This document shows positions 10,401 to 64,000 of a stretch of 64,000 nucleotides of DNA, one piece after another. Position numbers and translations under genes: made by a program. Under the pieces are notes generated by a model, which saw nothing but the letters and a program-made list of their open reading frames with translations, searched no databases and was not told the origin of the DNA. The DNA is from Cordylochernes scorpioides (Eukaryota; Arthropoda; Arachnida; Pseudoscorpiones; Chernetidae), in NCBI GenBank assembly GCA_030710605.1, contig CP092863.1, positions 110,226,881 through 110,290,880 on the forward strand. The letters are read 5' to 3'. Numbering within the stretch: the stretch's first letter is position 1; the number at the start of each line of letters is the position of its first letter.

Positions 10401-10734
10401 TGTAATTCAAATTAATAGTGAAAGTAAATACACACAAGATAAATCTAAATATGAAAAATTCTATCAAAGATAAACATCCTGAATTCCTTATTTGAAACTA
10501 TTGTACTGATCCAGCATTTGAAAGCCCATCTTGAAAGACAACAAACCATAGGAACAAATACCAATTAATGAAATATATGTGGTACCATGGATTCAAGAAT
10601 CTAATCTGCAAAAAAAACCCCTTAAAATTCCATTAACCCGTAGACTAATGTGTTTACTAACTATGAGGGGAGTAAGCGGAAATTTTACATACTTTAGTGT
10701 GTAAATATGTAAATTAAAAATTAAAAATGCATAC

Positions 10735-10925
10735 TCTAACCGCTCATATGATCATTTTTCAGATTTCAGAGTGCCATCTAGTCGATAAAAATCAACTAAA
10801 CTTTGATTCATGCTTGTTCCATGATATTTAGTCACCCCATGTTCTAGATAAATCAAGAAAATCCAACCACAAACACGTTTCGGGCTGTTGGCCTTCATCA
10901 GCGTGGTGCAGGCTGTATACCTATT
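10735..10925 (-). mobile_element. RZ-A-like retrozyme copy, diverged
   Basis: In reverse it carries the hammerhead (10867-10906), then the downstream part of the 346-bp unit: tttcttgatttatc, an atcaaagtttag hairpin and the gactagatggca block. Only about 20 bp upstream of the ribozyme is retained. Confidence 0.7.
10867..10906 (-). ncRNA. Hammerhead ribozyme motif (RZ-A variant)
   Basis: Reverse strand: CCACG, CTGATGA, stem II AGGC-CAACA-GCCC, GAAA, CGTG, TT, TGTGG. All core residues of a hammerhead are present and the residue at the cleavage site is U. Stem I pairs CCACG with TGTGG (one G-U). Stem II has an A-C closing mismatch that could lower activity. Confidence 0.75.
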
Positions 10926-19495: not shown

Positions 19496-19755
19496 AATTA
19501 TACCTACATGAAGTAAACGAAAAAATTGCGCTACAAATTTTAAAAATAAAACTACAACCTTTCGCAATGAGTTTCTTTTATTATGATATGCGCGAGCTTT
19601 CGGGCTGGAGCCACCCTTCTACAGGCAAAAAATGAAACATTTGAATTAAATGTATCCCTGTAGAAGGGCGGCTCCAGCCCGAAAGCTCGCGCATATCATA
19701 ATAAAAGAAACTCATTGCGAAAGGTTGTAGTTTTATTTTTAAAATTATACCTACA
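19496..19755. mobile_element. Foldback element with 13-bp target-site duplication
   Basis: aattatacctaca occurs at 19496-19508 and again at 19743-19755, enclosing a 234-bp insertion. Within it, near-perfect inverted arms begin tttaaaaataaaactac and contain caatgagtttctttt, cgcgagctttcgggctgg and tgtagaagggcgg, meeting at a short unpaired centre near 19640. Confidence 0.85.
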
Positions 19756-20136: not shown

Positions 20137-20365
20137 AATATGTCCAGGGTAGCCTAGTGGACATGGCATCTGCCCGGTAAGCGGAGCACTGCGGGTTCGA
20201 TTCCTATCCCTGGACACTTTTATTTTTCCGTTCATCATTACTTTTCATAATTCACCCTTTCATACCTCATCCAAAAAGGTTAGAAATAGTCAATATTTAA
20301 CCTTGAAATAAAATTTTGATTTTTCATTGAAAAGAAACTCATGCGGTGTAACTTCAAATATATTT
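20137..20365 (+). mobile_element. SINE-1, best copy
   Basis: The tRNA-like head starts tgtccagggtagcctagtgg and its acceptor-like ends TCCAGGG and CCCTGGA pair over 7 bp. The anticodon stem TCTGC/GCGGA pairs, with a loop reading CCGGTAA, and box B is gggttcgattcc. The T stem is poorly paired and position 33 is C, so this is a SINE head, not a working tRNA. The body continues to gaaactcatgcggtgtaac. Confidence 0.8.
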
Positions 20366-24053: not shown

Positions 24054-26186
24054 ATGGCAGCGGACGGCGGCGTGCGCACGCGGTACCTTGGCTGCGCCAC
24101 CTTCCGTAGCTCCCGGCCCGCGGCACCGGGGGTCTCCGTACTCCAGCGCCCGCTCCTCGAGGTTTACTCAGCGGCCCGACGTCGCGGTGAAGACCACCGA
24201 GCGCCTCTCGCACTCACCCAGCGCCTTCACGTCGCTCCGGGGTACGGTGTGGTGGTTGGAGAAGGCCCGTTGGTCACCAAAGTCATCACTCCCCTTTCCA
24301 ATCTCACACTTTGGGCGGCGGTCCGCTTCCAAGCAAGGGTTCTACGTCGACGTGGTGCGTTTGGAGCAGCGTTTGTGCCTCTAGCTTGCTCCGATGCCGG
24401 ACTCGAGCCCGTGCCTCTTTCCAACAAGCAAAGGTTCCTGGTTAGCTTGACCCATCCGTCAATTTTTGCTTGTGTTCTGCGTCGCGTCGCGTCGCCCAAG
24501 TCTTTCGAGTGCCACGCTTTTGTCTGCGCTTCTGCCGAGGAAGCGCTCACGCTCTGCGCCAGGCTGCAAGAAGCTCAGGATGCAGATCGAGCAGTGTATC
24601 CCCCAGCCCCTTTATCCCTGCCCCCCTCCACCCATCTCTACTCGGAAGAGGAGTCGCCTTCTGATGTCACTCTCTCCAGAGAGTTGCTGTCCAGAAGGGA
24701 AACCCCTGCTGTCCACTATTCCAAGCTCAAGCACAAGGATGAGCAATTTTCGTCATCGGGGCCCACGCCGCCTCCAAGAAAGTTGCGCCATCGCAGTGCC
24801 GCAAAGTCCTCCTCCCGCCTTCTCCAGCTCTCAGAAGGCCGTTATTCCACTACCCCATCTCCATCACCAAAAGAATTACCAACTCAGCCACATTTCCGCA
24901 GCAACGACGCTGAACCGCGGAGATCCGAGAAACTACGACGAAGAGCCGTTCCCAACCGCCATCGGAAAAGTTTCAGTAGACAACCCCGAAGAAGCTTACG
25001 GCTAAAACACCAGAAAACACAGGTAGCTAGCAGTAGCGATGCTGAAAACATCAGTCCTAGGAAGATCGAAGAACGATGGGAACCAGCGACCTACTGGAAA
25101 TCCTACAAGAACGCTGAGTACCATTCCTCGGTGACATCCCTGGAGAACGAAGACTACAAGCGGCAAGTTCGCAAGGTCCAAGCTGTTGACTCGCACCAAC
25201 GAGCATCATGCGACACCAGCGAGGAGATGGACTCCTCAACCTCCATACCCAACAGCGCGAGGCAGCTCCAACGAATCCGCGCGTCTAAGCAGAACAAACC
25301 CAAGGTAAGAGACCATATGGTTATCACAGAGTCCATCGAACTGAGCAGTGAGAGCGAATTCTCTTTCCTCAACAAGTCTGACCGACAGACAAATGATCGC
25401 ATCCATACCCCATCTTCATCAGGCCCTCCCAAAGCATATTACTTCGGCTACGAAGCTTACAACTCCCCCAATGATTTTGGAGCCTCCAAGAGGAATCCTA
25501 AGGTACCTATACCTCAAGTAAAAGTGATTAAGACCTCTCTAGAAGTCCATCATCCACCATCCATCCTCTCAACAACAGAAAGCAAATCCTATCTGGACTA
25601 TATCAAATCCGCAGATAAGGTGATCATCAACATTCCTTACAGTTTTGATAAGAACAGGCATGTACCGCATGGCGTCCGATGCTTTAGTCGTACGAGTCAA
25701 GTTCGGAACTGGTCGACGCTAAGTTCCGAATGTTCAGGTCCACAGAGCTGTGTAACCCTACCTGCAATCTCAAGTAGCACAAAGCCAAGCAAGATCATTC
25801 GATGGTCATCCGACGAACGGTTCGTGAAAGCAAGGCGAAGAACCAACTTCCTAGCTACATTGAAACGGGTCAGCCTCAAATCCCTGTACAAAGCTCGTTT
25901 CCACACCGAGAGGTTCTTAGCAAACATGCGGAGCAGACTAACGGACCGCAAGAAATCCTCAGAATGCTCCGAGGACTCGGCGTACGTGTCTGAAGTCTGC
26001 CGTAGTCCACGAGGAGCCCCACGTTTGGATGATTCAGACTCAGGATTGGATGAATATCACACGGACTACAGGTCAGAATCCGAGCTGGAACAACTGGCAT
26101 CTCAAGTCCGTTTCATGGGACGCGGACTACCTCCCAGGAGCTGGTCCCAAACCAATCTGAAAGATGAGCTTGGCTATATCCCTTAA
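24054..26186 (+). CDS. PTB/PID-domain protein with long disordered tail
   Basis: A 710-residue single-exon frame. The first in-frame ATG is at 24054, with an in-frame TAG at 24030, so the N-terminus looks real. Residues about 8-175 resemble a phosphotyrosine-binding/PID fold: TRYLGCATF (first strand), TKVITPLSNLTLWAA, HPSIFACVLRR, SFECHAFVCAS and the C-terminal helix AEEALTLCARLQEA. Residues about 91-132 look like an insertion between two strands. The rest is low-complexity, basic and serine-rich, with PTPPPRKLR at 238-246 as a possible SH3 ligand, the segment ESKSYLDYIKSADKVIINIP (509-528), and an acidic-serine C-terminus (DDSDSGLDEYHTDY) before PPRSWSQTNLKDELGYIP. PTB adaptors link receptors or lipids to signalling or endocytosis. 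The intronless form recalls FAM43, but the match is too weak to name the gene. GC content is far above the flanks. Confidence 0.8.
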   Translation: MAADGGVRTRYLGCATFRSSRPAAPGVSVLQRPLLEVYSAARRRGEDHRAPLALTQRLHVAPGYGVVVGEGPLVTKVITPLSNLTLWAAVRFQARVLRRRGAFGAAFVPLACSDAGLEPVPLSNKQRFLVSLTHPSIFACVLRRVASPKSFECHAFVCASAEEALTLCARLQEAQDADRAVYPPAPLSLPPSTHLYSEEESPSDVTLSRELLSRRETPAVHYSKLKHKDEQFSSSGPTPPPRKLRHRSAAKSSSRLLQLSEGRYSTTPSPSPKELPTQPHFRSNDAEPRRSEKLRRRAVPNRHRKSFSRQPRRSLRLKHQKTQVASSSDAENISPRKIEERWEPATYWKSYKNAEYHSSVTSLENEDYKRQVRKVQAVDSHQRASCDTSEEMDSSTSIPNSARQLQRIRASKQNKPKVRDHMVITESIELSSESEFSFLNKSDRQTNDRIHTPSSSGPPKAYYFGYEAYNSPNDFGASKRNPKVPIPQVKVIKTSLEVHHPPSILSTTESKSYLDYIKSADKVIINIPYSFDKNRHVPHGVRCFSRTSQVRNWSTLSSECSGPQSCVTLPAISSSTKPSKIIRWSSDERFVKARRRTNFLATLKRVSLKSLYKARFHTERFLANMRSRLTDRKKSSECSEDSAYVSEVCRSPRGAPRLDDSDSGLDEYHTDYRSESELEQLASQVRFMGRGLPPRSWSQTNLKDELGYIP

Positions 26187-30322: not shown

Positions 30323-30544
30323 GCATCTATAATCCGTGGTTAGCTTTTCTTGATTAATCAAGAATGGGTATTTGGCCAATTCTGGAATAATTAAAAATCA
30401 ACGAGAATAGTTGATATTTATTCCGATAGATGGCGCAAGCCATCAGCAACTTTCAGTTGCACGATAAGGAGATGCCTTTTTTCATAATTATGCACCTTAT
30501 CCCAGTACAATATCACATTTGTACTATTTTTTCGCATCTATAAT
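30323..30544 (+). mobile_element. Solo RZ-A insertion starting at the ribozyme cleavage site, with 11-bp TSD
   Basis: gcatctataat at 30323-30333 recurs at 30534-30544. The 200-bp insert starts (c)cgtggttagcttttcttg, which is the 5' end expected after hammerhead cleavage of the 346-bp unit. It ends actattttttc, the same 3' boundary seen at 37.15 and 39.24 kb. The ribozyme itself is absent. Confidence 0.85.
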
Positions 30545-30898: not shown

Positions 30899-32932
30899 TC
30901 TGGATAACACTTAAGGAAGTTGTACCTTTTAGCATGTATATCGGGATTCAGACAATAACTCTGAAAGATACACTCATGGACAAAACTTAAGGAAGTTGTA
31001 CCTTTTAGCATGTATATTGGGATTCAGACAATAACTCTGAAAGATACACTCATGGACAAAACTTAAGGAAGTTGTACCTTTTAGCATGTATATCGGGATT
31101 CAGACAATAACTCTGAAAGATACACTCATGGACAAAACTTAAGGAAGTTGTACCTTTTAGCATGTATATTGGGATTCAGACAATAACTCTGAAAGATACA
31201 CTCATGGACAAAACTTAAGGAAGTTGTACCTTTTAGCATGTATATCGGGATTCAGACAATAACTCTGAAAGATACACTCATGGACAAAACTTAAGGATGT
31301 TGTACCTTTTAGCATGTATATCGGGATTCAGACAATAATTCTGAAAGATACACTCATGGACAAAACTTAAGGATGTTGTACCTTTTAGCATGTATATCGG
31401 GATTGAGACAATAACTCTGAAAGATACACTCATGGACAAAACTTAAGGAACTTGTACCTTTTAGCATGTATATCGGGATTGAGACAATAACTCTGAAAGA
31501 TACACTCATGGACAAAACTTAAGGAAGTTGCACCTTTTAGTATGTATATCGGGATTCTGACAATAACTCTGAAAGATACACTCATGGACAAAACTTAAGG
31601 ATGTTGTACCTTTTAGCATGTATATCGGGATTCAGACAATAACTCTGAAAGATACACTCATGGACAAAACTTAAGGAAGTTGTACCTTTTAGCATGTATA
31701 TCGGGATTCAGACAATAACTCTGAAAGATACACTCATGGACAAAACTTAAGGAACTTGTACCTTTTAGCATGTATATCGGGATTCAGACAATAACTCTGA
31801 AAGATACACTCATGGACAAAACTTAAGGAAGTTGTACCTTTTAGCATGTATATCGGGATTCAGACAATAACTCTGAAAGATACACTCATGGACAAAACTT
31901 AAGGAAGTTGTACCTTTTAGCATGTATATCGGGATTCAGACAATAACTCTGAAAGATACACTCATGGACAAAACTTAAGGAAGTTGTACCTTTTAGCATG
32001 TATATCGGGATTCAGACAATAACTCTGAAAGATACACTCATGGACAAAACTTAAGGAAGTTGTACCTTTTAGCATGTATATCGGGATTCAGACAATAACT
32101 CTGAAAGATACACTCATGGACAAAACTTAAGGAAGTTGTACCTTTTAGCATGTATATCGGGATTCAGACAATAACTCTGAAAGATACACTCATGGACAAA
32201 ACTTAAGGAACTTGTACCTTTTAGCATGTATATCGGGATTCAGACAATAACTCTGAAAGATACACTCATGGACAAAACTTAAGGAAGTTGTACCTTTTAG
32301 CATGTATATCGGGATTCAGACAATAACTCTGAAAGATACACTCATGGACAAAACTTAAGGAAGTTGTACCTTTTAGCATGTATATCGGGATTCAGACAAT
32401 AACTCTGAAAGATACACTCATGGACAAAACTTAAGGAAGTTGTACCTTTTAGCATGTATATCGGGATTCAGACAATAACTCTGAAAGATACACTCATGGA
32501 CAAAACTTAAGGAAGTTGTACCTTTTAGCATGTATATCGGGATTCAGACAATAACTCTGAAAGATACACTCATGGACAAAACTTAAGGAAGTTGTACCTT
32601 TTAGCATGTATATCGGGATTCAGACAATAACTCTGAAAGATACACTCATGGACAAAACTTAAGGAAGTTGTACCTTTTAGCATGTATATCGGGATTCAGA
32701 CAATAACTCTGAAAGATACACTCATGGACAAAACTTAAGGAAGTTGTACCTTTTAGCATGTATATCGGGATTCAGACAATAACTCTGAAAGATATTACAG
32801 TGACCTTTATTGAACACACGCAAGTGTTCACATCAAATGTGAAAAAAAATTGCCTAGGCCTCCTTCAAAAAAAGAAAAAGATGACCGACGACATCAAAGA
32901 CTTTACACTTACTTAAGTTTTGTCCATGAGTG
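30899..32932 (+). mobile_element. M76 element expanded to ~25 nearly identical 76-bp units
   Basis: The left terminal repeat is truncated (ggataacacttaagg). About 25 plus-strand units follow with very few differences (ggatg, ggaac, tattggg variants), showing recent expansion. The right arm (gatgaccgacgacatc) ends tgtccatgagtg followed by TA. Confidence 0.92.
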
Positions 32933-36174: not shown

Positions 36175-36640
36175 AAATACACCCATGGAAACTAAACTCT
36201 TTTTCGCATAAATATCGGGATTCAGATAATAACTCTGAAAGATATTTGATACACGAGATAACCTAAGTGTGAACAAAATTGGTTCTGTCTTCTTTAGAAA
36301 TAATACAAGGTTGTCAACTACAAAATAGTAAAGGTAAATAAATTAAGAAAAATGATACTGATCGTGCAACTAAAAGTTGCTGATGGCTAGCGCCATCTAT
36401 CAAAATAAATATCAACCTGAAACGCGTAAGTGATTATCTTTTCTTTACTAATAAAAAAAAAAAAGAGTATTTGACCAAATCTGAAATATATATATTTTTT
36501 AAATTAACCTTTAGTTGATATTTATTCCGACAGATGGCGTAAGCCATCGGGATCGTTTAGTTTCACGGTCTTAATCCTATATGTTATAATACCTTGAAAA
36601 AGGTTGGCATTCAGCCAACTGAAATATTGGTAAATAAATG
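36175..36640. mobile_element. Mosaic of M76, RZ-A and family-D relics
   Basis: 36180-36310: degraded M76 (cacccatgg, acacgagataacc). 36350-36560: two opposed RZ-A hairpin blocks, with a stub of the hammerhead end (cctgaaacgcgtaag) between them. 36588-36640: the family-D hairpin ggttggc-attca-gccaact. Confidence 0.55.
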
Positions 36641-36644
36641 GGGA

Positions 36645-36780
36645 GGGCTATTTTTAGCTTTCAATTTTATTGGGGAATAATTTTCTCTCAATTAACAACA
36701 CTGTTTTATATTTAGATTATCTTTTGCTATATATTTGCATATATTATTGTTCGTAAGGCATTTATTTCGTATTTCGTTTA
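36645..36780. repeat. Left arm of a long-range inverted repeat
   Basis: gggctatttttagctttc through ttcgtaaggcatttatttcg reappears inverted at 39838-39978, on the other side of the hammerhead array. Confidence 0.8.
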
Positions 36781-37140: not shown

Positions 37141-37146
<6 letters not shown>

Positions 37147-37346
37147 TATGTGAAAAAATAGTACAAATGTAACATTGTACTGGGATAAGGTGCATAAATC
37201 ATGAAAAAAGAAAAAGGCATCTCCTTATCGTGCAACTGAAAGTTGCTGATGGCTGAGCGCCATCTATCGGAATAAATATCAACTATTCTCGTTGATTTTT
37301 TTTATTCCATAATTGGCCAAATACCCATTCTTGATTAATCAAGAAA

Positions 37347-37400
37347 AGCTAACCACGGACGCGTTTCGGGCTGTTGGCCCTCATCAGCGTGGTGCAAGCT
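37347..37400 (-). ncRNA. Hammerhead ribozyme, RZ-A copy 1
   Basis: Reverse strand: outer AGCT, CCACG, CTGATGA, GGGC-CAACA-GCCC, GAAA, CGCG, TC, CGTGG, outer AGCT. Stem I is 5 bp plus a 4-bp outer helix, stem II 4 bp, stem III the palindrome ACGCGT. Predicted cleavage lies between 37358 and 37357. Confidence 0.92.
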
Positions 37401-37692
37401 GTACCTCAAAGACCAAAAAAATTGGTCATTAAGGCATCCTGAAAAATCATGAAACGGGTAGTTAAGGCCAGAATTGCGTGAGGACTCTACACAATGTGAA
37501 AAAATAGTACAAATGTAACATTGTACTGGGATAAGGTGCATAAATCATGAAAAAAGAAAAAGGCATCTCCTTATCGTGCAACTGAAAGTTGCTGATGGCT
37601 GAGCGCCATCTATCGGAATAAATATCAACTATTCTCGTTGATTTTTTTTATTCCATAATTGGCCAAATACCCATTCTTGATTAATCAAGAAA

Positions 37693-37746
37693 AGCTAACC
37701 ACGGACGCGTTTCGGGCTGTTGGCCCTCATCAGCGTGGTGCAAGCT
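37693..37746 (-). ncRNA. Hammerhead ribozyme, RZ-A copy 2
   Basis: Identical core and stems to copy 1, exactly 346 bp away. Predicted cleavage between 37704 and 37703 would release a 346-nt monomer together with copy 1. Confidence 0.92.
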
Positions 37747-38050
37747 GTACCTCAAAGACCAAAAAAATTGGTCATTAAGGCATCCTGAAAAATTATGGAA
37801 TAAAAAAAATCAACGAGAATAGTTGATATTTATTCCGATAGATGGCGCTCAGCCATCAGCAACTTTCAGTTGCACGATAAGGAGATGCCTTTTTCTTTTT
37901 TCATGATTTATGCACCTTATCCCAGTACAATGTTACATTTGTACTATTTTTTCACATTGTGTAGAGTCCTCACGCAATTCTGGCCTTAACTACCCGTTTC
38001 ATGATTTTTCAGGATGCCTTAATGACCAATTTTTTTGGTCTTTGAGGTAC

Positions 38051-38104
38051 AGCTTGCACCACGCTGATGAGGGCCAACAGCCCGAAACGCGTCCGTGGTT
38101 AGCT
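38051..38104 (+). ncRNA. Hammerhead ribozyme, RZ-A copy 3
   Basis: CCACG 38059-38063, CTGATGA 38064-38070, stem II GGGC (38071-38074) with GCCC (38080-38083), GAA 38084-38086, ACGCGT 38087-38092, C17 at 38093, CGTGG 38094-38098. The outer AGCT/AGCT helix encloses an internal loop, as in tertiary-stabilised natural hammerheads. Cleavage is predicted after 38093. Confidence 0.93.
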
Positions 38105-38396
38105 TTTCTTGATTAATCAAGAATGGGTATTTGGCCAATTATGGAATAAAAAAAATCAACGAGAATAGTTGATATTTATTCCGATAGATGGCGCTCAGCC
38201 ATCAGCAACTTTCAGTTGCACGATAAGGAGATGCCTTTTTCTTTTTTCATGATTTATGCACCTTATCCCAGTACAATGTTACATTTGTACTATTTTTTCA
38301 CATTGTGTAGAGTCCTCACGCAATTCTGGCCTTAACTACCCGTTTCATGATTTTTCAGGATGCCTTAATGACCAATTTTTTTGGTCTTTGAGGTAC

Positions 38397-38450
38397 AGCT
38401 TGCACCACGCTGATGAGGGCCAACAGCCCGAAACGCGTCCGTGGTTAGCT
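38397..38450 (+). ncRNA. Hammerhead ribozyme, RZ-A copy 4
   Basis: Same structure 346 bp downstream of copy 3. Cleavage is predicted after 38439. Confidence 0.93.
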
Positions 38451-38742
38451 TTTCTTGATTAATCAAGAATGGGTATTTGGCCAATTATGGAATAAAAAAA
38501 ATCAACGAGAATAGTTGATATTTATTCCGATAGATGGCGCTCAGCCATCAGCAACTTTCAGTTGCACGATAAGGAGATGCCTTTTTCTTTTTTCATGATT
38601 TATGCACCTTATCCCAGTACAATGTTACATTTGTACTATTTTTTCACATTGTGTAGAGTCCTCACGCAATTCTGGCCTTAACTACCCGTTTCATGATTTT
38701 TCAGGATGCCTTAATGACCAATTTTTTTGGTCTTTGAGGTAC

Positions 38743-38796
38743 AGCTTGCACCACGCTGATGAGGGCCAACAGCCCGAAACGCGTCCGTGGTTAGCT
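38743..38796 (+). ncRNA. Hammerhead ribozyme, RZ-A copy 5
   Basis: Same structure 346 bp downstream of copy 4. Cleavage is predicted after 38785. Confidence 0.93.
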
Positions 38797-39094
38797 TTTC
38801 TTGATTAATCAAGAATGGGTATTTGGCCAATTATGGAATAAAAAAAATCAACGAGATAGTTGATATTTATTCCGATAGATGGCGCTCAGCCATCAGCAAC
38901 TTTCAGTTGCACGATAAGGAGATGCCTTTTTCTTTTTTCATATATATATATATTAAGAAAAAGGGCATCTCCTTATCGTGCAACTGAAAGTTGCTGATGG
39001 CTTGCGCCATCTATCGGAATAAATATCAACTATTCTTGTTGATTTCTAATTATTCCAGAATTGGCCAAATATCCATTCTTGATTAATCAAGAAA

Positions 39095-39148
39095 AGCTAA
39101 CCACGGACGCGTTTCGGGCTGTTGGCCCTCATCAGCGTGGTGCAAGCT
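39095..39148 (-). ncRNA. Hammerhead ribozyme, RZ-A copy 6
   Basis: Complete motif in minus orientation inside a slightly diverged unit (for example cttgcgccatc in place of ctgagcgccatc elsewhere in the unit), while the ribozyme itself is unchanged. Cleavage is predicted between 39106 and 39105. Confidence 0.92.
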
Positions 39149-39329
39149 GTACCTCAACGACCAAAAAATTGGTCATTAAGGCATTTTGAAAAATCATGAA
39201 ACGGGTTATTGTCCCAGTACAATATCACATTTGTACTATTTTTTCATATATATATATATATTTTAAAGGCGAACTTTCAAATTTGCATATATGATAAATC
39301 CGCCGTTATATAAACAAATAAGGTGTGTG

Positions 39330-39837: not shown

Positions 39838-39978
39838 TTAACGAAATAAATGCCTTACGAACAATAATATATGCAAATATATAGCAAAAGATAATCTAAA
39901 TATAAAACAGTGTTATTAATTGAGATAAAATTATTCACCAATAAATTCTAAAGCTAAAAATAACCCTCCCCATTTTAT
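39838..39978. repeat. Right arm of the long-range inverted repeat
   Basis: cgaaataaatgccttacgaa through agctaaaaataaccctcccc is the inverted match of 36645-36780. Confidence 0.8.
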
Positions 39979-45349: not shown

Positions 45350-45800
45350 GATCTTCCTTTGTGGTCCTGTCGTGGCCTGGCATGCATCTCAAGTTCCTCT
45401 CACCTTCTGTGGCATCTCCTTATCGTGGTGTCTGTATTTCTTCTGTGGTCTTGTCGTGGCATCTCAAGTTCCTCTCACCTTCTGTGGCATCTCCTTATCG
45501 TGGTGTCTGTATTTCTTCTGTGGTCTTGTTGTGGCATCTCAAGTTCCTCTCACCTTCTGTGGCATCTCCTTATCGTGGTGTCTGTATTTCTTCTGTGGTC
45601 TTGTTGTGGCATCTCAAGTTCCTCTCACCTTCTGTGGCATCTCCTTATCGTGGTGTCTGTATTTCTTCTGTGGTCTTGTTGTGGCATCTCAAGTTCCTCT
45701 CACCTTCTGTGGCATCTCCTTATCGTGGTGTCTGTATTTCTTCTGTGGTCTTGTTGTGGCATCTGAACTTCCTCTCACCTACTGCGGTATATTTCCCCTA
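45350..45800. repeat. 75-bp minisatellite (about 5.5 copies)
   Basis: A unit of 75 bp (ggcatctcaagttcctctca ... ggtgtctgtatttcttctg). Because 75 is divisible by three and the unit has no plus-strand stops, all three frames stay open with a 25-residue period. This is taken as non-coding. Confidence 0.9.
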
Positions 45801-46099: not shown

Positions 46100-46525
46100 G
46101 ATCTTTATCACCGACCCAAGGCCGCTAGTTGCGGCGACGGTTAATAGATGGCGTCTGGTTTTAGACGTCTATTTTGACGGGAGAGGTGACCCTTGTCTCT
46201 TTGGATCAATTTCCTCTGGCAAAATTTCCATCTATATTTTAGCCATAAATATAGCCCAGGCACTTTGCCAGCTAAACATCTCTTTGACAGACTGTGAAGA
46301 TTCCATTAGATCCCTTGTGAATCTCAAGGAATAAAGTCCGCCCTGGGCTGACGAGGGCCATTAGCCAGAAACCATGGTCTCTAGGTGGACGCTTTTCAGT
46401 TTGCCAAAGCTGGTGATGTGGCTTTGTTACCAACCCGAGGCCGCTAGTTGCGGCGACGGTCAATAGATGGCGTCTGGTTTTAGACATCTATTTTGACGGG
46501 AGAGGCGACCCTTGTCTCTTTAGAT
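46100..46525 (+). mobile_element. RZ-B retrozyme-like element, one unit plus partial second copy
   Basis: The block gccgctagttgcggcgacgg ... tctattttgacgggagagg occurs at 46121-46200 and 46440-46515, a 319-bp period, with a complete hammerhead between. The second copy stops at gtctctttagataaa. Its composition differs from RZ-A and there is no sequence match outside the ribozyme core. No ORF of note. Confidence 0.82.
46336..46390 (+). ncRNA. Hammerhead ribozyme (RZ-B)
   Basis: GTCC (46336-46339) pairs with GGAC (46387-46390). CCTGGG pairs with TCTAGG (46380-46385) using two G-U pairs next to CTGACGA (46348-46354). Stem II GGGC/GCC(A) flanks loop CATTA, with a G-A closing mismatch. GAA is at 46368-46370, stem III the palindrome ACCATGGT (46371-46378), and C17 at 46379. 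All invariant core positions match, so cleavage is predicted after 46379. Confidence 0.85.
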
Positions 46526-47000
46526 AAATATATCTGTTTTTTATTTAATAATGGCATCCAATATTCAATTATATTAATATGAAAAACACATTGCCAGTAA
46601 ATTTATTTTTTTACAATAATTATCGATAAATGGCAAAATTGAATTTATAAATAGATTTAGCGCGATATTATTAGTGATTTTTTTTTCTATGAGAGGAAGG
46701 AAAGACAAACAGTCACACTGGTAGGTCGGCGTTGGCAACACTGCCCAAATATTATGTTTAAGGATAAACTCAAGTGAGGGATTCACACCAGTGTGGTGAA
46801 ATGGATTATCCAGATCATTGGTGGAATGCTATTGGTCGGCAGTGTTTGTTCCTCTCATGTTGAAATGACTATAGGATAGGTAGGTCGGGAATGTTTTACT
46901 TTCCTGTTGGAAGAAGTTAATTTTATAAATGGTCGTAGAGCGCTCAACAAAACCTACATTTGTTTTAAATAATTTCTTAGTGTTTATATAGACACTTATA
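46526..47000. other. Intergenic, nothing recognised
   Basis: AT-rich; the antisense 70-residue frame has no domain. Confidence 0.4.
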
Positions 47001-50000
47001 CACTCATTGACAAAACTTAAAGAAGTTGTACCTTTTAGTATGTATATCGGGATTCAGACAATACCTCTGAAAGATACACTCATTCACAAAACTTAAGGAA
47101 GTTGTACCTTTTAACATGTATATCGGGATTGAGACAATAACTCTGAAAGATACACTCATTGATAAAACTTAAAGAAGTTGTACCTTTTAGTATGTATATC
47201 GGGATTCAGACAATACCTCTGAAAGATACACATATTCACAAAACTTAAGGAAGTTGTACCTTTTAACATGTATATCGGGATTGAAACAATAACTCTGAAA
47301 GATACACTCATTGATAAAACTTAAGGAAGTTGTACCTTTTAACATGTATATCGGGATTGAGACAATAACTCTGAAAGATACACTCATTGACAAAACTTAA
47401 GGAAAAAGATTATAAAAACGAAGAGAAAATTATTTATTTTTACTATACATGGGCTACGAGCTTTCGGGCAGCCTCGCCCTTCTATTGTAGAAGGGCGAGG
47501 CTGCCCGAAAGCTCGTAGCCCATGTATAGTAAAAATAAATAATTTTCTCTTCGTTTTTATAATCTTTTTACAGTTCTATAGAGAAACTTTCATGATTCAA
47601 GTCAAACTTAAGGAAGTTGTACCTTTTAACATGTATATCGGGATTCAGACAATAACTCTGAAAGATACACTCATGGACAAAACTTAAGGAAGTTGTACCT
47701 TTTAATATGTATATCGGGATTCAGACAATAACTCTGAAATATACACTCATTGACAAAACTTAAGGAAGTTGTACCTTTTAACATGTATATCGGGATTCGG
47801 ACAATAACTCTGAAATATACACTCATGGACAAAACTTAAGGAAGTTGTACCTTTTAGCATGTATATCGGGATTGAGACAATAACTCTGAAATATACACTC
47901 ATGGACAAAACTTAAGGAAGTTGTACCTTTTAGCATGTATATCGGGATTGAGACAATAACTCTGAAAGATACACTCATGGACAAAACTTAAGGAAGTTGT
48001 ACCTTTTAGCATGTATATCGGGATTCAGACAATAACTCTGAAAGATACACTCTTGAACAAAATTTAAGGAAGTTGTATCTTTTAACATGTATATCGGGAT
48101 TCAGACATTAACTCTGAAATATACACTCATGGACAAAACTTAAGGAAGTTGTACCTTTTAGCATGTATATCGGGATTCAGACAATAACTCTGAAAGATAC
48201 ACTCATGGACAAAACTTAAGGAAGTTGTACCTTTTAACATGTATATCGGGATTCAGACAATAACTCTGAAAGATACACTCATGGACAAAACTTAAGGAAG
48301 TTGTACCTTTTAATATGTATATCGGGATTCAGACCATAACTCTGAAATATACACTCGTTGACAAAACTTAAGGAAGTTGTACCTTTTAACATGTATATCG
48401 GGATTCGGACAATAACTCTGAAATATACACTCGTGGACAAAACTTAAGGAAGTTGTACCTTTTAGCATGTATATCGGGATTGAGACAATAACTCTGAAAG
48501 ATACACTCATGGACAAAACTTAAGGAAGTTGTACTTTTTGCATGTATATCGGGATTCAGACAATAACTCTGAAAGATACACTCATGAACAAAATTTAAGG
48601 AAGTTGTACATTTTAGCATGTATATCGGGATTCAGACAATAACTCTGAAAGATACACTCATGGACAAAACTTAAGGAAGTTGTACCTTTTAATATGTATA
48701 TCGGGATTCAGACCATAACTCTGAAATATACACTCATGGACAAAACTTAAGGAAGTTGTACCTTTTAGCATGTATATCGGGATTCAGACAATAACTCTGA
48801 AAGATACACTCATGGACAAAACTTAAGGAAGTTGTACCTTTTAGCATGTATATCGGGTTTAAGACAATAACTCTGAAAGATACACTCATGGACAAAACTT
48901 AAGGAAGTTGTACCTTTTAACATGTATATCGGGATTCAGACAATAACTCTGAAAGATACACTCATGGACAAAACTTAAGGAAGTTGTACCTTTTAATATG
49001 TATATCGGGAATTAGACCATAACTCTGAAATATAAACTCATTGACAAAACTTAAGGAAGTTGTACCTTTTAACATGTATATCGGGATTCGGACAATAACT
49101 CTGAAATATTCACTCATGGACAAAACTTAAGGAAGTTGTACCTTTTAGCATGTATATCGGGATTCAGACAATAACTCTGAAAGATACACTCATTGACAAA
49201 ACTTAAGGAAATTGTACCTTTTAACATGTATATCGGGATTCAGACAATAACTCTGAAATACACACTCATGGACAAAACTTAAGGAAGTTGTACCTTTAAG
49301 CATGTATATCGGGATTGAGACAATAACTCTGAAAGATACACTCATGGACAAAACTTTAGGAAGTTGTACCTTTTAGCATGTATATCGGGATTCAGACAAT
49401 AACTCTGAAAGATACACTCTTGAACAAAATTTAAGGAAGTTGTACATTTTAGCATGTATATCGGGATTCAGACAATAACTCTGAAAGATACACTCATTGA
49501 CAAAACTTAAGGAAATTGTACCTTTTAACATGTATATCGGGATTCAGACAATAACTCTGAAATACACACTCATGGACAAAACGTAAGGAAGTTGTACCTT
49601 TAAGCATGTATATCGGGATTGAGACAATAACTCTGAAAGATACACTCATGGACAAAACTTTAGGAAGTTGTACCTTTTAGCATGTATATCGGGATTCAGA
49701 CAATAACTCTGAAAGATACACTCTTGAACAATATTTAAGGAAGTTGTATCTTTTAACATGTATATCGGGATTCAGACATTAACTCTGAAATATACACTCA
49801 TGGACAAAACTTAAGGAAGTTGTAACTTTTAGGATGTATATCGGGATTCAGACAATAACTCTGAAAGATACACTCATGGACAAAACTTAAGGAAGTTGTA
49901 CCTTTTAGCATGTATATCGGGTTTAAGACAATAACTCTGAAAGATACACTCATGGACAAAACTTAAGGAAGTTGTACCTTTTAATATGTATATCGGGATT

Positions 50001-50999
50001 CAGACAATAACTCTGAAATATACACTCATTGACAAAACTTAAGGAAGTTGTACCTTTTAACATGTATATCGGGATTCAGACAATAACTCTGAAATATACA
50101 CTCATGGACAAAACTTAAGGAAGTTGTACCTTTGGGCATGTATATCGGGATTGAGACAATAACTCTGAAAGATACACTCATGGACAAAACTTAAGGAAGT
50201 TGTACTTTTTAGCATGTATATCGGGATTCAGACAATAACTCTGAAAAATACACTCATGAACAAACCTTAAGAAAGTTGTACCTTTTAGTATGTATATTGG
50301 GATTCAGACAATAACTCTGAAAGATACACTCATGGACAAAACTTAAGGAAGTTGTACCTTTTAGCATGTATATCGGGTTTAAGACAATAACTCTGAAAGA
50401 TACACTCATGGACAAAACTTAAGGAAGTTGTACCTTTTAATATGTATATCGGGATTCAGACAATAACTCTGAAATATACACTCATTGACAAAACTTAAGG
50501 AAGTTGTACCTTTTAACATGTATATCGGGATTCAGACAATAACTCTGAAATATACACTCATGGACAAAACTTAAGGAAGTTGTACCTTTGGGCATGTATA
50601 TCGGGATTGAGACAATAACTCTGAAAGATACACTCATGGACAAAACTTAAGGAAGTTGTACTTTTTAGCATGTATATCGGGATTCAGACAATAACTCTGA
50701 AAAATACACTCATGAACAAACCTTAAGAAAGTTGTACCTTTTAGTATGTATATTGGGATTCAGACAATAACTCTGAAAGATACACTCATGGACAAAACTT
50801 AAGGAAGTTGTACCTTTTACCATATATATCGGGATTCAGACAATAACTCTGAAAGATATTACAGTGACCTTTATGGAAGACACGCGAGATAACCAAGTGT
50901 GAACAGCCTCTGTCTCGTACAAAAAAATATATATATATATAATAGTCGACCGACCGCATCAAAGACTTTCCACTTCCTTAAGTTTTGTCTCCATGAGTG
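47001..50999 (+). mobile_element. M76 MITE expanded to ~4 kb (about 48 units)
   Basis: TA-cactcattgacaaaactt at the left and the unique arm with ccatgagtg-TA at 50999 bracket about 48 plus-strand units. Marks such as tttaagacaata, tttgggcatg and ctcttgaac recur at 304-bp (4 units) and 456-bp (6 units) spacing. The array is interrupted by a foldback at 47405-47603. Confidence 0.92.
47393..47615. mobile_element. Foldback element inside the 76-bp array, 12-bp TSD
   Basis: aaacttaaggaa at 47393-47404 and 47604-47615 flank a 199-bp insert. Arms of about 80 bp (aagattataaaaacgaagag, cgagctttcgggcagcctcg) are near-perfect complements joined by a two- to three-base loop. A single-copy tail (cagttctatagagaaacttt) follows. 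Confidence 0.92.
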
Positions 51000-63379: not shown

Positions 63380-63960
63380 TTTCTAGATATGGTGATGGGA
63401 GTTGATGGAACAGTGGTCTTTTTTTGACAGCCATTATTTTTTATATATATTTATATACAAAAAATAAAAAAGGCATATCCTGACCAGGAGCACATGTGCT
63501 TTTCAGAAGGCAGAACGCCATCTAGTGGAACAGAAATCAACTAAACGTTGATTTAACCTGTTTCCTGATATTTGGCCAACCCAATTTCTTGATAAATCAA
63601 GAAAAGTCATTCACGAATTGATATACATATATTTATAAATTTCTCGTTATGGTGATGGGAGTTGATGGAACATTGGTCTTTTTTTGACAGCCATTATTTT
63701 TTATATATTGATATATATACAAAAAATAAAAAGTCATATCCTATAAAAAATATTTTTGGTCGCAGTGGTTACAGCCTACTCCACACTGACGAACGCCAAC
63801 AGCGCGAAACGCGTTTGTGGATGGCTTTTCTTGATTTATCAAGAAATTGGGATGGCCAAATATCACGGAGCAAGCTAAATAAACGTTTAGTTTATTTTTG
63901 CTCCACTAGATGGCGCTCTGCCATCTAAAAAGCACATGTGCTCGTGGTCAGGAGATGTCT
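63380..63960. mobile_element. Diverged RZ-A elements within a local duplication
   Basis: atggtgatgggagttgatgg ... ttgacagccattatttttta occurs at about 63389 and 63649. The first copy is followed by a minus RZ-A-like body (63460-63610) that ends near the cleavage-site boundary (gtcattcacg). The second is followed by a plus RZ-A-like body with a full hammerhead (63740-63960), including gctccactagatggcgctct. Confidence 0.7.
63780..63821 (+). ncRNA. Hammerhead ribozyme, diverged RZ-A
   Basis: TCCACA (63780-63785), CTGACGA (63786-63792), stem II ACGC-CAACA-GCGC, GAA (63806-63808), ACGCGT (63809-63814), U17 at 63815, TGTGGA (63816-63821). Stem I is six perfect pairs. Relative to the 38-kb copies, the pair next to the core is A-U instead of G-C. 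Cleavage is predicted after 63815. Confidence 0.85.
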
Positions 63961-64000
63961 TCTTTAGTTTTAATATCAACACCTGACCCACCTATCTTTT

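Follow-up and report, generated by a model that had tools for sequence, protein, structure and literature searches.

What are the six hammerhead ribozymes that lie between positions 37358 and 39135 of a 64,000-nt stretch of the genome of the pseudoscorpion Cordylochernes scorpioides (contig CP092863.1 of assembly GCA_030710605.1, positions 110,226,881 to 110,290,880; hereafter the window), and what brought them there? An initial annotation of the window, made from the letters alone, had described them as one cluster of tandem and inverted units and had linked them to retrozymes and Penelope-like elements (PLEs). We find that the cluster represents two insertions lying side by side in an (AT)n tract and not one array. 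Both are very probably copies of a non-autonomous metazoan retrozyme mobilised via a Penelope-like enzyme, a reading for which we infer a helper, RNA cleavage and RNA circles. The retrozyme family of the window is named here RZ1; its unit is about 340 bp long, and 346 bp in the window. The locus itself is not special: it consists of two copies from a family whose hammerhead cores number thousands genome-wide.

All six hammerheads are of type I and have intact cores. The exact core pattern, CTGATGAG-N12-GAAACGCGTC (30 bases), is present in six of six, as had been annotated, at 37358(-), 37704(-), 38064(+), 38410(+), 38756(+) and 39106(-). When up to three mismatches are allowed, the window holds nine core matches, against a mean of 0.01 in shuffled sequence. 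The tandem spacing of 346 bp is exact within each run (37358-37704; 38064-38410-38756), and stem I with its outer helix, the 4-bp stem II and the palindrome ACGCGT can be read directly off the sequence. The hammerheads are as follows.

37338-37403, minus strand: hammerhead 1, type I (core pattern, Rfam match)
37684-37749, minus strand: hammerhead 2, type I (core pattern, Rfam match)
38048-38113, plus strand: hammerhead 3, type I (predicted cut between 38093 and 38094)
38394-38459, plus strand: hammerhead 4, type I (core pattern, Rfam match)
38740-38805, plus strand: hammerhead 5, type I (core pattern, Rfam match)
39086-39151, minus strand: hammerhead 6, type I, in insertion 2 (core pattern, Rfam match)

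Stems I and II pair and covary, also between families. Fourteen copies were picked for this comparison from motif windows (75 distinct, 38 with an exact core), and in their alignment the stems pair in 91.8% of 196 cells; when the partner is slid by 1-3 columns, pairing falls to 23.5-43.4%. Double changes are found in 16 cells, where shuffles average 5.0 (none of 500 attains 16), and in six stem pairs, where they average 3.4 (23 of 500 shuffles), these cells not being independent events since the aligned copies are kin. Invariance of the core letters across the 14 copies was dropped as evidence, because selection by the pattern itself demands most of them. Stem III, ACGCGT, amounts in the monomer to 0-1 bp plus a palindromic tetraloop. 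With such a bare palindrome the RZ1 hammerheads probably work as dimers, by analogy with the axolotl motif, and the annotated suitability of this stem for dimers agrees with that published motif (PMC7229834). The 346-nt monomer has a predicted fold of -118.5 kcal/mol (z -9.66), and a lone 66-nt hammerhead folds little better than shuffles (z -1.20).

Insertion 1 carries five of the hammerheads and insertion 2 carries one; both are two-armed, with a 5'-to-5' join. Unit positions are numbered from the predicted cut (u1 = 38094), with the plus arm of insertion 1 as the reference unit, and the outer ends of arms are assigned to two sites of the unit, A and B, defined below. By unit alignment, the minus arm of insertion 1 represents 1.89 units and its plus arm 3.33 units. 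The head-to-head junction annotated near 37797 is real. Its two arms share 653 nt with 100% complementarity, so that a read-through transcript could fold as long double-stranded RNA. Insertion 2 follows after a stretch of (AT)n, with a minus arm at approximately 38946-39206 that includes its hammerhead and a plus stub of 41 nt at 39209-39249. It has 94.9% identity to the reference unit and was therefore counted separately from insertion 1. The annotated cluster is thus right as to the cores and the inverted layout, and wrong as to a single array, the copy at 39106 being a separate insertion. The components of the locus, with one further copy in the window, are listed here.

37148-38941, both strands: RZ1 insertion 1, bounded by site B on the left and site A on the right, five hammerheads
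37148-37800, minus strand: minus arm of insertion 1, spanning u250 to u210 with 99.7% identity to the reference unit; its outer (3') end is at site B
37791-38941, plus strand: plus arm of insertion 1, u44 to u157, 99.9%, outer (3') end at site A
37791-37800, no strand: head-to-head junction of insertion 1, where the arm alignments overlap by 10 nt
38946-39249, both strands: RZ1 insertion 2, minus arm ending at site A, plus stub of ~41 nt ending at site B
38094-38439, plus strand: predicted monomer from cut site to cut site, 346 nt
37876-37921, plus strand: site-A hairpin, T-rich loop with site A, repeated at 38222-38267 and 38568-38613
37904-37954, plus strand: 'tail' between sites A and B in the first plus unit, about 50 nt
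30333-30537, plus strand: RZ1 copy with its 5' end 2 nt off the predicted ribozyme cut and its 3' end at site B

No open reading frame (ORF) of at least 150 aa is listed at the RZ1 locus, and none there combines a reverse transcriptase with a GIY-YIG endonuclease. Long terminal repeats (LTRs), a primer-binding site (PBS) or a polypurine tract (PPT) were not noticed on reading the unit, with no dedicated search for them, and plasmid records gave no match to the unit. An inverted repeat of 135 bp with 94.8% identity (36636-36770 and 39841-39975) flanks the cluster at a distance of ~0.4-0.6 kb on each side. Matches to microRNAs at 38874-39015 were set aside, as they coincide with the inverted repeat between insertions 1 and 2.

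What is new lies in the ends of the insertions. They were counted at places fetched with flanks from the first 28.6 Mb of contig 1, plus the window; 80 clusters, that of the window included, carry at least one exact core. Two sites account for the 3' ends of the arms: A at ~u147-u157 in a T-rich loop and B at ~u205-u211 after TTTTTTCA. Within the unit the two sites lie on one strand, separated by ~50 nt, and tandem copies contain them again. In a formal count, in which each family was measured on its own unit, compounds were split and L002, L003, L008, L009 and L081 were excluded, there are 55 head-to-head elements. Both ends could be classed in 43 of these: 41 are A/B, two are A/A and none is B/B. 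RZ1 accounts for 32 A/B, 2 A/A and 0 B/B, with nine more having at least one unclassed end; two further families found in the window, RZ2 and RZ3, give 8 A/B with one unclassed and 1 A/B with two unclassed, respectively. Some sampled loci are duplicates: one and the same segment accounts for L001, L002 and L009, and L024 is a repeat of the L011 insertion; without L024 the A/B share is 40/42. Elements of a single orientation in this count end at A, B or neither in 43, 14 and 10 cases for RZ1, 13, 1 and 1 for RZ2, and 2, 2 and 4 for RZ3.

Scoring of the 80 clusters by motif gave 33 A/B, 0 A/A, 1 B/B, 28 with A only and 12 with B only, the remainder being four with A and a weak B stub, one with B and a weak B stub, and one with none. 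The single B/B is the cluster of the window, and it was rejected since two A/B insertions lie side by side there. Under independent choice of ends, with an A frequency of 28/40, 33 A/B of 33 has a probability of 4e-13. Among 42 fragments lacking an exact core, an unconditioned look first gave four A/A and one A/B. Only L031 of these four A/A stands: L016, to which RZ1 ends had been applied, is an RZ2 copy and is A/B on the unit of RZ2, L033 has one unclassed end, and L036 is a palindrome. The latter (L036:1840-2480) takes in an RZ1 copy together with its flanks and points to a later inverted duplication.

Site A lies in a hairpin closed by GATAAGG...CCTTATC in RZ1 and by GATCAGG...CCTGATC and GGTCAGG...CCTGACC in relatives. 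Over 15 sequences (14 distinct) it is 92.1% paired, with 11 double-change cells against 6.1 in shuffles, all of them in just two pairs.

Many of the insertions are bracketed by target repeats, of unequal length. Exact edge repeats of at least 10 nt occur in 48 of 78 elements, where chance gives 7.2 on average and 13 at most, and repeats of at least 12 nt in 31, where chance gives 2.9; in the control, left and right flanks of different elements were paired over 40 reshuffles, L002 and L009 being left out. Among the non-repetitive ones are TTGTCTATATAGT (L029) and GCGTCTAAAATA (L054). Repeats of 7 nt (67/78) were dropped as a count, as mismatched flanks average 47.6. The orientation of the 80 clusters is '-+' in 30, '---+' in one, '+' in 27, '-' in 20, '-+-' in one and '-+-+' in one (the window), and '+-' was found in none. 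At 42 head-to-head junctions of RZ1-like pieces, 16 show overlap, four are blunt and 22 contain filler, and the 5' unit positions of the two arms are unrelated.

These junctions bear on how the second arm is made. Self-priming on an antisense template, and not copying from both DNA ends, is in print for rotifer Penelope elements, which have palindromes at their inverted junctions (PMC3846280), and it could in principle produce head-to-head arms here. We consider it unlikely, given the unrelated 5' positions and the mixture of overlap, blunt and filler joins, and given that the second outer end coincides with the other fixed start site, an outcome not expected from self-priming.

In LINE (long interspersed nuclear element) twin priming the inverted segment begins at variable internal positions. 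An RZ1 that is a SINE (short interspersed nuclear element)-like sequence moved by a LINE, with twin priming as the source of the inverted arm, would account for target repeats and 5' truncation, which suit target-primed copying generally. Both outer ends of RZ1 are, however, fixed internal sites, and inspection of the printed ends by eye showed no shared poly(A) tail, no partner LINE having been searched for. This origin seems very improbable.

No better is the case for ordinary satellite DNA that spreads by unequal crossing-over and carries the ribozyme as a functionless relic. Tandem 346-bp units are indeed almost identical, and relic status of the ribozyme would be compatible with the sequence. 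However, RZ1 copies in the 28.6 Mb sampled are dispersed and mostly near one unit in length, 48 of the 78 elements are bracketed by the exact repeats of at least 10 nt, and the hammerhead stems covary across families. Opposite arms of one insertion also agree. Fifteen whole units were located in six loci; the 14 pairs of units inside one insertion, five of them from opposite arms, differ by 0-2 substitutions of ~340, whereas 91 pairs across insertions differ by a mean of 1.86% (closest: L014 and the window, 0.3%), indels being omitted from all these differences. The length difference between opposite arms is 3 nt in L014 and 7 nt in L019, and tandem units of one arm are equal in length. On the retrozyme reading, this near-identity fits copying from a single circle and from a homogeneous multimer alike.

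A DNA transposon or MITE (miniature inverted-repeat transposable element) with A and B as its left and right ends, one each per copy, would agree with one A and one B per two-armed element and with the TGAAAAAA found at both ends of some copies, and is the least probable of all, as edge repeats differ in length instead of being fixed, interiors differ between copies whose arms are truncated at scattered positions and joined 5'-to-5', A and B lie on the same strand and recur within tandem copies, 28 + 12 of the 80 clusters have A only or B only, several of these keep edge repeats of at least 10 nt, and a PLE with a GIY-YIG piece is built alike.

This PLE is the L066/L081 insertion, with two head-to-head arms of 874 bp that are 99.5% identical and a target repeat of 15 bp. 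It holds pieces of a GIY-YIG ORF on both arms (Pfam E 2.2e-6 and 2.2e-5), and an extra ~28 nt, the tail, on the left arm only. A second insertion, of its 3' end, lies in the window as follows.

19509-19746, minus/plus head-to-head: 3' end of the L066/L081 PLE, with a tail confined to the left arm and a direct repeat of 13 bp, AATTATACCTACA

Both of the two PLE insertions examined have a retrozyme-like build. The proposed link of the hammerheads to retrozymes and PLEs is thus borne out by the insertion ends, the tail, the target direct repeats and a PLE remnant of the same build in the window. The fixed A/B ends give, at the level of sequence, structural evidence for a mobilisation of retrozymes by PLEs that has until now been conjecture: PLEs are just a strong candidate helper in the Discussion of PMC7229834, and are given only as candidate movers in PMC7761336 and PMC11722881 as well.

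According to the retrozyme reading, a tandem RZ1 copy would be transcribed, and its hammerheads, probably as dimers, would cut the RNA into ~340-nt monomers, and these may be circularised by a host ligase. A Penelope-like reverse transcriptase with a GIY-YIG endonuclease would then use the retrozyme RNA and nick both strands of an AT-rich target. Copying would start at A, in the conserved hairpin loop, on one DNA end and at B, ~50 nt downstream, on the other, and the two cDNAs would be joined 5'-to-5'. Tandem units would come from more than one lap round the circle, or from a multimer. Cleavage, circles, helper and order of steps are what we infer. As a tentative refinement, to which we give slightly less than an even chance, a Penelope-type dimer may copy one RNA, probably circular, from both DNA ends, one subunit starting at A and the other at B. 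If true, such dual-end copying would explain the single tail, the 5'-to-5' joins, the near-identical units of the two arms and the spread of retrozymes in animals. A Penelope footprint present in nearly all 43 insertions makes possible a direct in vitro test of which enzyme moves animal retrozymes. The pattern of one A and one B also limits models of how Penelope elements make their second strand.

Several observations weigh against this reading. The local PLE carries no Rfam-listed hammerhead, and a BLAST search with its last 325 bp (E 1e-6) found no RZ1 copy; consequently, it and RZ1 share their build only. Hammerhead mutants of the Anolis PLE still inserted in vitro (PMC11167929). Clusters of a single orientation make up 47 of the 80. 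Among core-less arms, five of 119 have a 5' end within 3 nt of the ribozyme cut, with ~2.4 expected (a uniform expectation calculated by hand, two artefact rows of 121 being dropped), which is no clear peak; the 91 core-bearing arms (four within 3 nt of the cut) were left out of this comparison, being biased by the selection for the core. Thus the genome does not show ribozyme-cut linear RNA as the template, and gives no sign that cleavage occurs or matters for integration. Two A/A elements depart from the rule: L031:2160 has no clear target repeat, and L036:1886 has inverted flanks too, which points to a probable palindromic duplication at a later time. Two of the five measures for the site-A hairpin are not above shuffles (double-change pairs, 2 versus 2.8; pair types, 6 versus 6.8), and with double changes in only two pairs this indicates that few events underlie its covariation. 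Finally, the covariance-model match above the Rfam threshold which the initial annotation had named as a test did not materialise. All six hammerheads match Hammerhead_HH9 at 26.5 bits (E 0.0012) against a gathering score of 52, and none in the window is at that threshold; the HH9 model expects a longer stem III than the 0-1 bp of the RZ1 monomer.

At the scale of the genome, RZ1 is a real retrozyme family, abundant and fairly young. Exact matches to the core pattern number 6243 + 6228 = 12471 in the 2.62-Gb genome (24 contigs), and those to its reversed control 0. Divergence from the RZ1 consensus is 0.9-9.0%, with a median of 3.0% (77 loci), figures from which pieces below 85% identity were excluded, so that older copies are under-counted. 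A tandem of a 114-bp part of an RZ1 arm that includes the hammerhead was observed at L011:2051-2490 (three cores); the related L024 has one. The two further families are represented in the window by the following features.

46103-46529, plus strand: RZ3 retrozyme of 1.3 units (unit 319 bp) with its hammerhead near 46336-46390; apparently decayed (fold z -0.27)
63745-64000, plus strand: RZ2 retrozyme, match running to the window end, hammerhead near 63786

RZ2, with a unit of 350 bp, is found in the window at 63460-64000 and 10713-10917 and at L005:2169-2619, and shows compensatory changes in the hammerhead stems and the site-A hairpin. RZ3, whose stem III palindrome is ACCATGGT, has further copies at L032:1799-2425, which is head-to-head with one end of each kind, and at L022:1542-1983, which folds better than shuffles (z -2.41) whereas the window copy does not. 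A 75-bp minisatellite at 45384-45784 holds 17 nt (GGCATCTCCTTATCGTG) that adjoin site A in RZ1, and by this sequence it may have captured a retrozyme end.

Other features of the window include a protein at 24057-26186, whose best named relatives are in Centruroides, spiders and horseshoe crabs, several of them called PID-domain proteins, as suits a chelicerate and probably arachnid host. A 76-bp satellite unit forms many separate arrays in both orientations (for example 30901-32794 and 47604-50858), and a tRNA-like match of 41.8 bits at 20143-20215 may be a gene or a SINE.

Among known systems, RZ1 is closest in character to the metazoan non-LTR retrozymes (Cervera & de la Pena 2020, PMC7229834). 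Like these, it has a type I hammerhead, a unit within 170-400 bp, tandem copies, a GC content below 50%, target repeats longer than 4 bp, a highly self-paired monomer and thousands of motifs; they lack LTR features, and none were noticed on reading the RZ1 unit. Measured as a retrozyme, it has tandem units in the range of ~150-450 bp that all contain a type I hammerhead, a GC content under 50%, target repeats above 4 bp and no ORF. The words 'arachnid', 'spider', 'chelicerat' and 'inverted' have 0 occurrences in the main text of PMC7229834; a chelicerate host and inverted two-armed insertions are therefore not described there under those words. The amphibian satellite 2, with the axolotl motif HHR_Amex1, resembles RZ1 in its 1-bp stem III with a palindromic tetraloop, its ~330-350-bp repeats and its best activity as dimers; HHR_Amex1 cuts well only as a dimer (PMC7229834). 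This likeness is one of motif and layout, and the sampled RZ1 insertions differ in being dispersed and mostly about one unit long. Plant LTR retrozymes (PMC4918200) are likewise non-autonomous repeats with hammerheads, and yield circular RNAs. They differ from RZ1 in their type III hammerheads and their target repeats of 4 bp, and have LTRs, a PBS and a PPT (PMC7229834, PMC7761336).

The anatomy of RZ1 insertions is that of PLEs, with head-to-head arms, an optional tail on one arm, AT-rich targets and target repeats (PMC11167929, PMC3846280). In the Anolis PLE (Poseidon), copying in vitro begins at two adjacent internal start sites, the interval between them corresponding to the genomic tail; both strands are cut and extended, AT-rich DNA is preferred, the start site is the same for either strand, and it lies in an AC-rich stem-loop (PMC11167929). 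As in RZ1, the hammerhead of this element is close to the two internal start sites. In Adineta vaga, the tail of Penelope is 'optionally present' on one inverted pseudo-LTR (pLTR; PMC3846280). RZ1 differs from PLEs in having no ORF, a tail of ~50 nt as against ~28 nt in the local PLE and 30-40 nt in published ones, and a canonical hammerhead core as against the minimal PLE kind (PMC7761336). Neither the near-exclusive one-tail form (41/43) nor its presence in retrozymes was found in print, in a search carried out mostly outside subscription papers. The one-tail pattern is already known qualitatively for PLEs, and its new element is the anatomy of the insertions in retrozymes.

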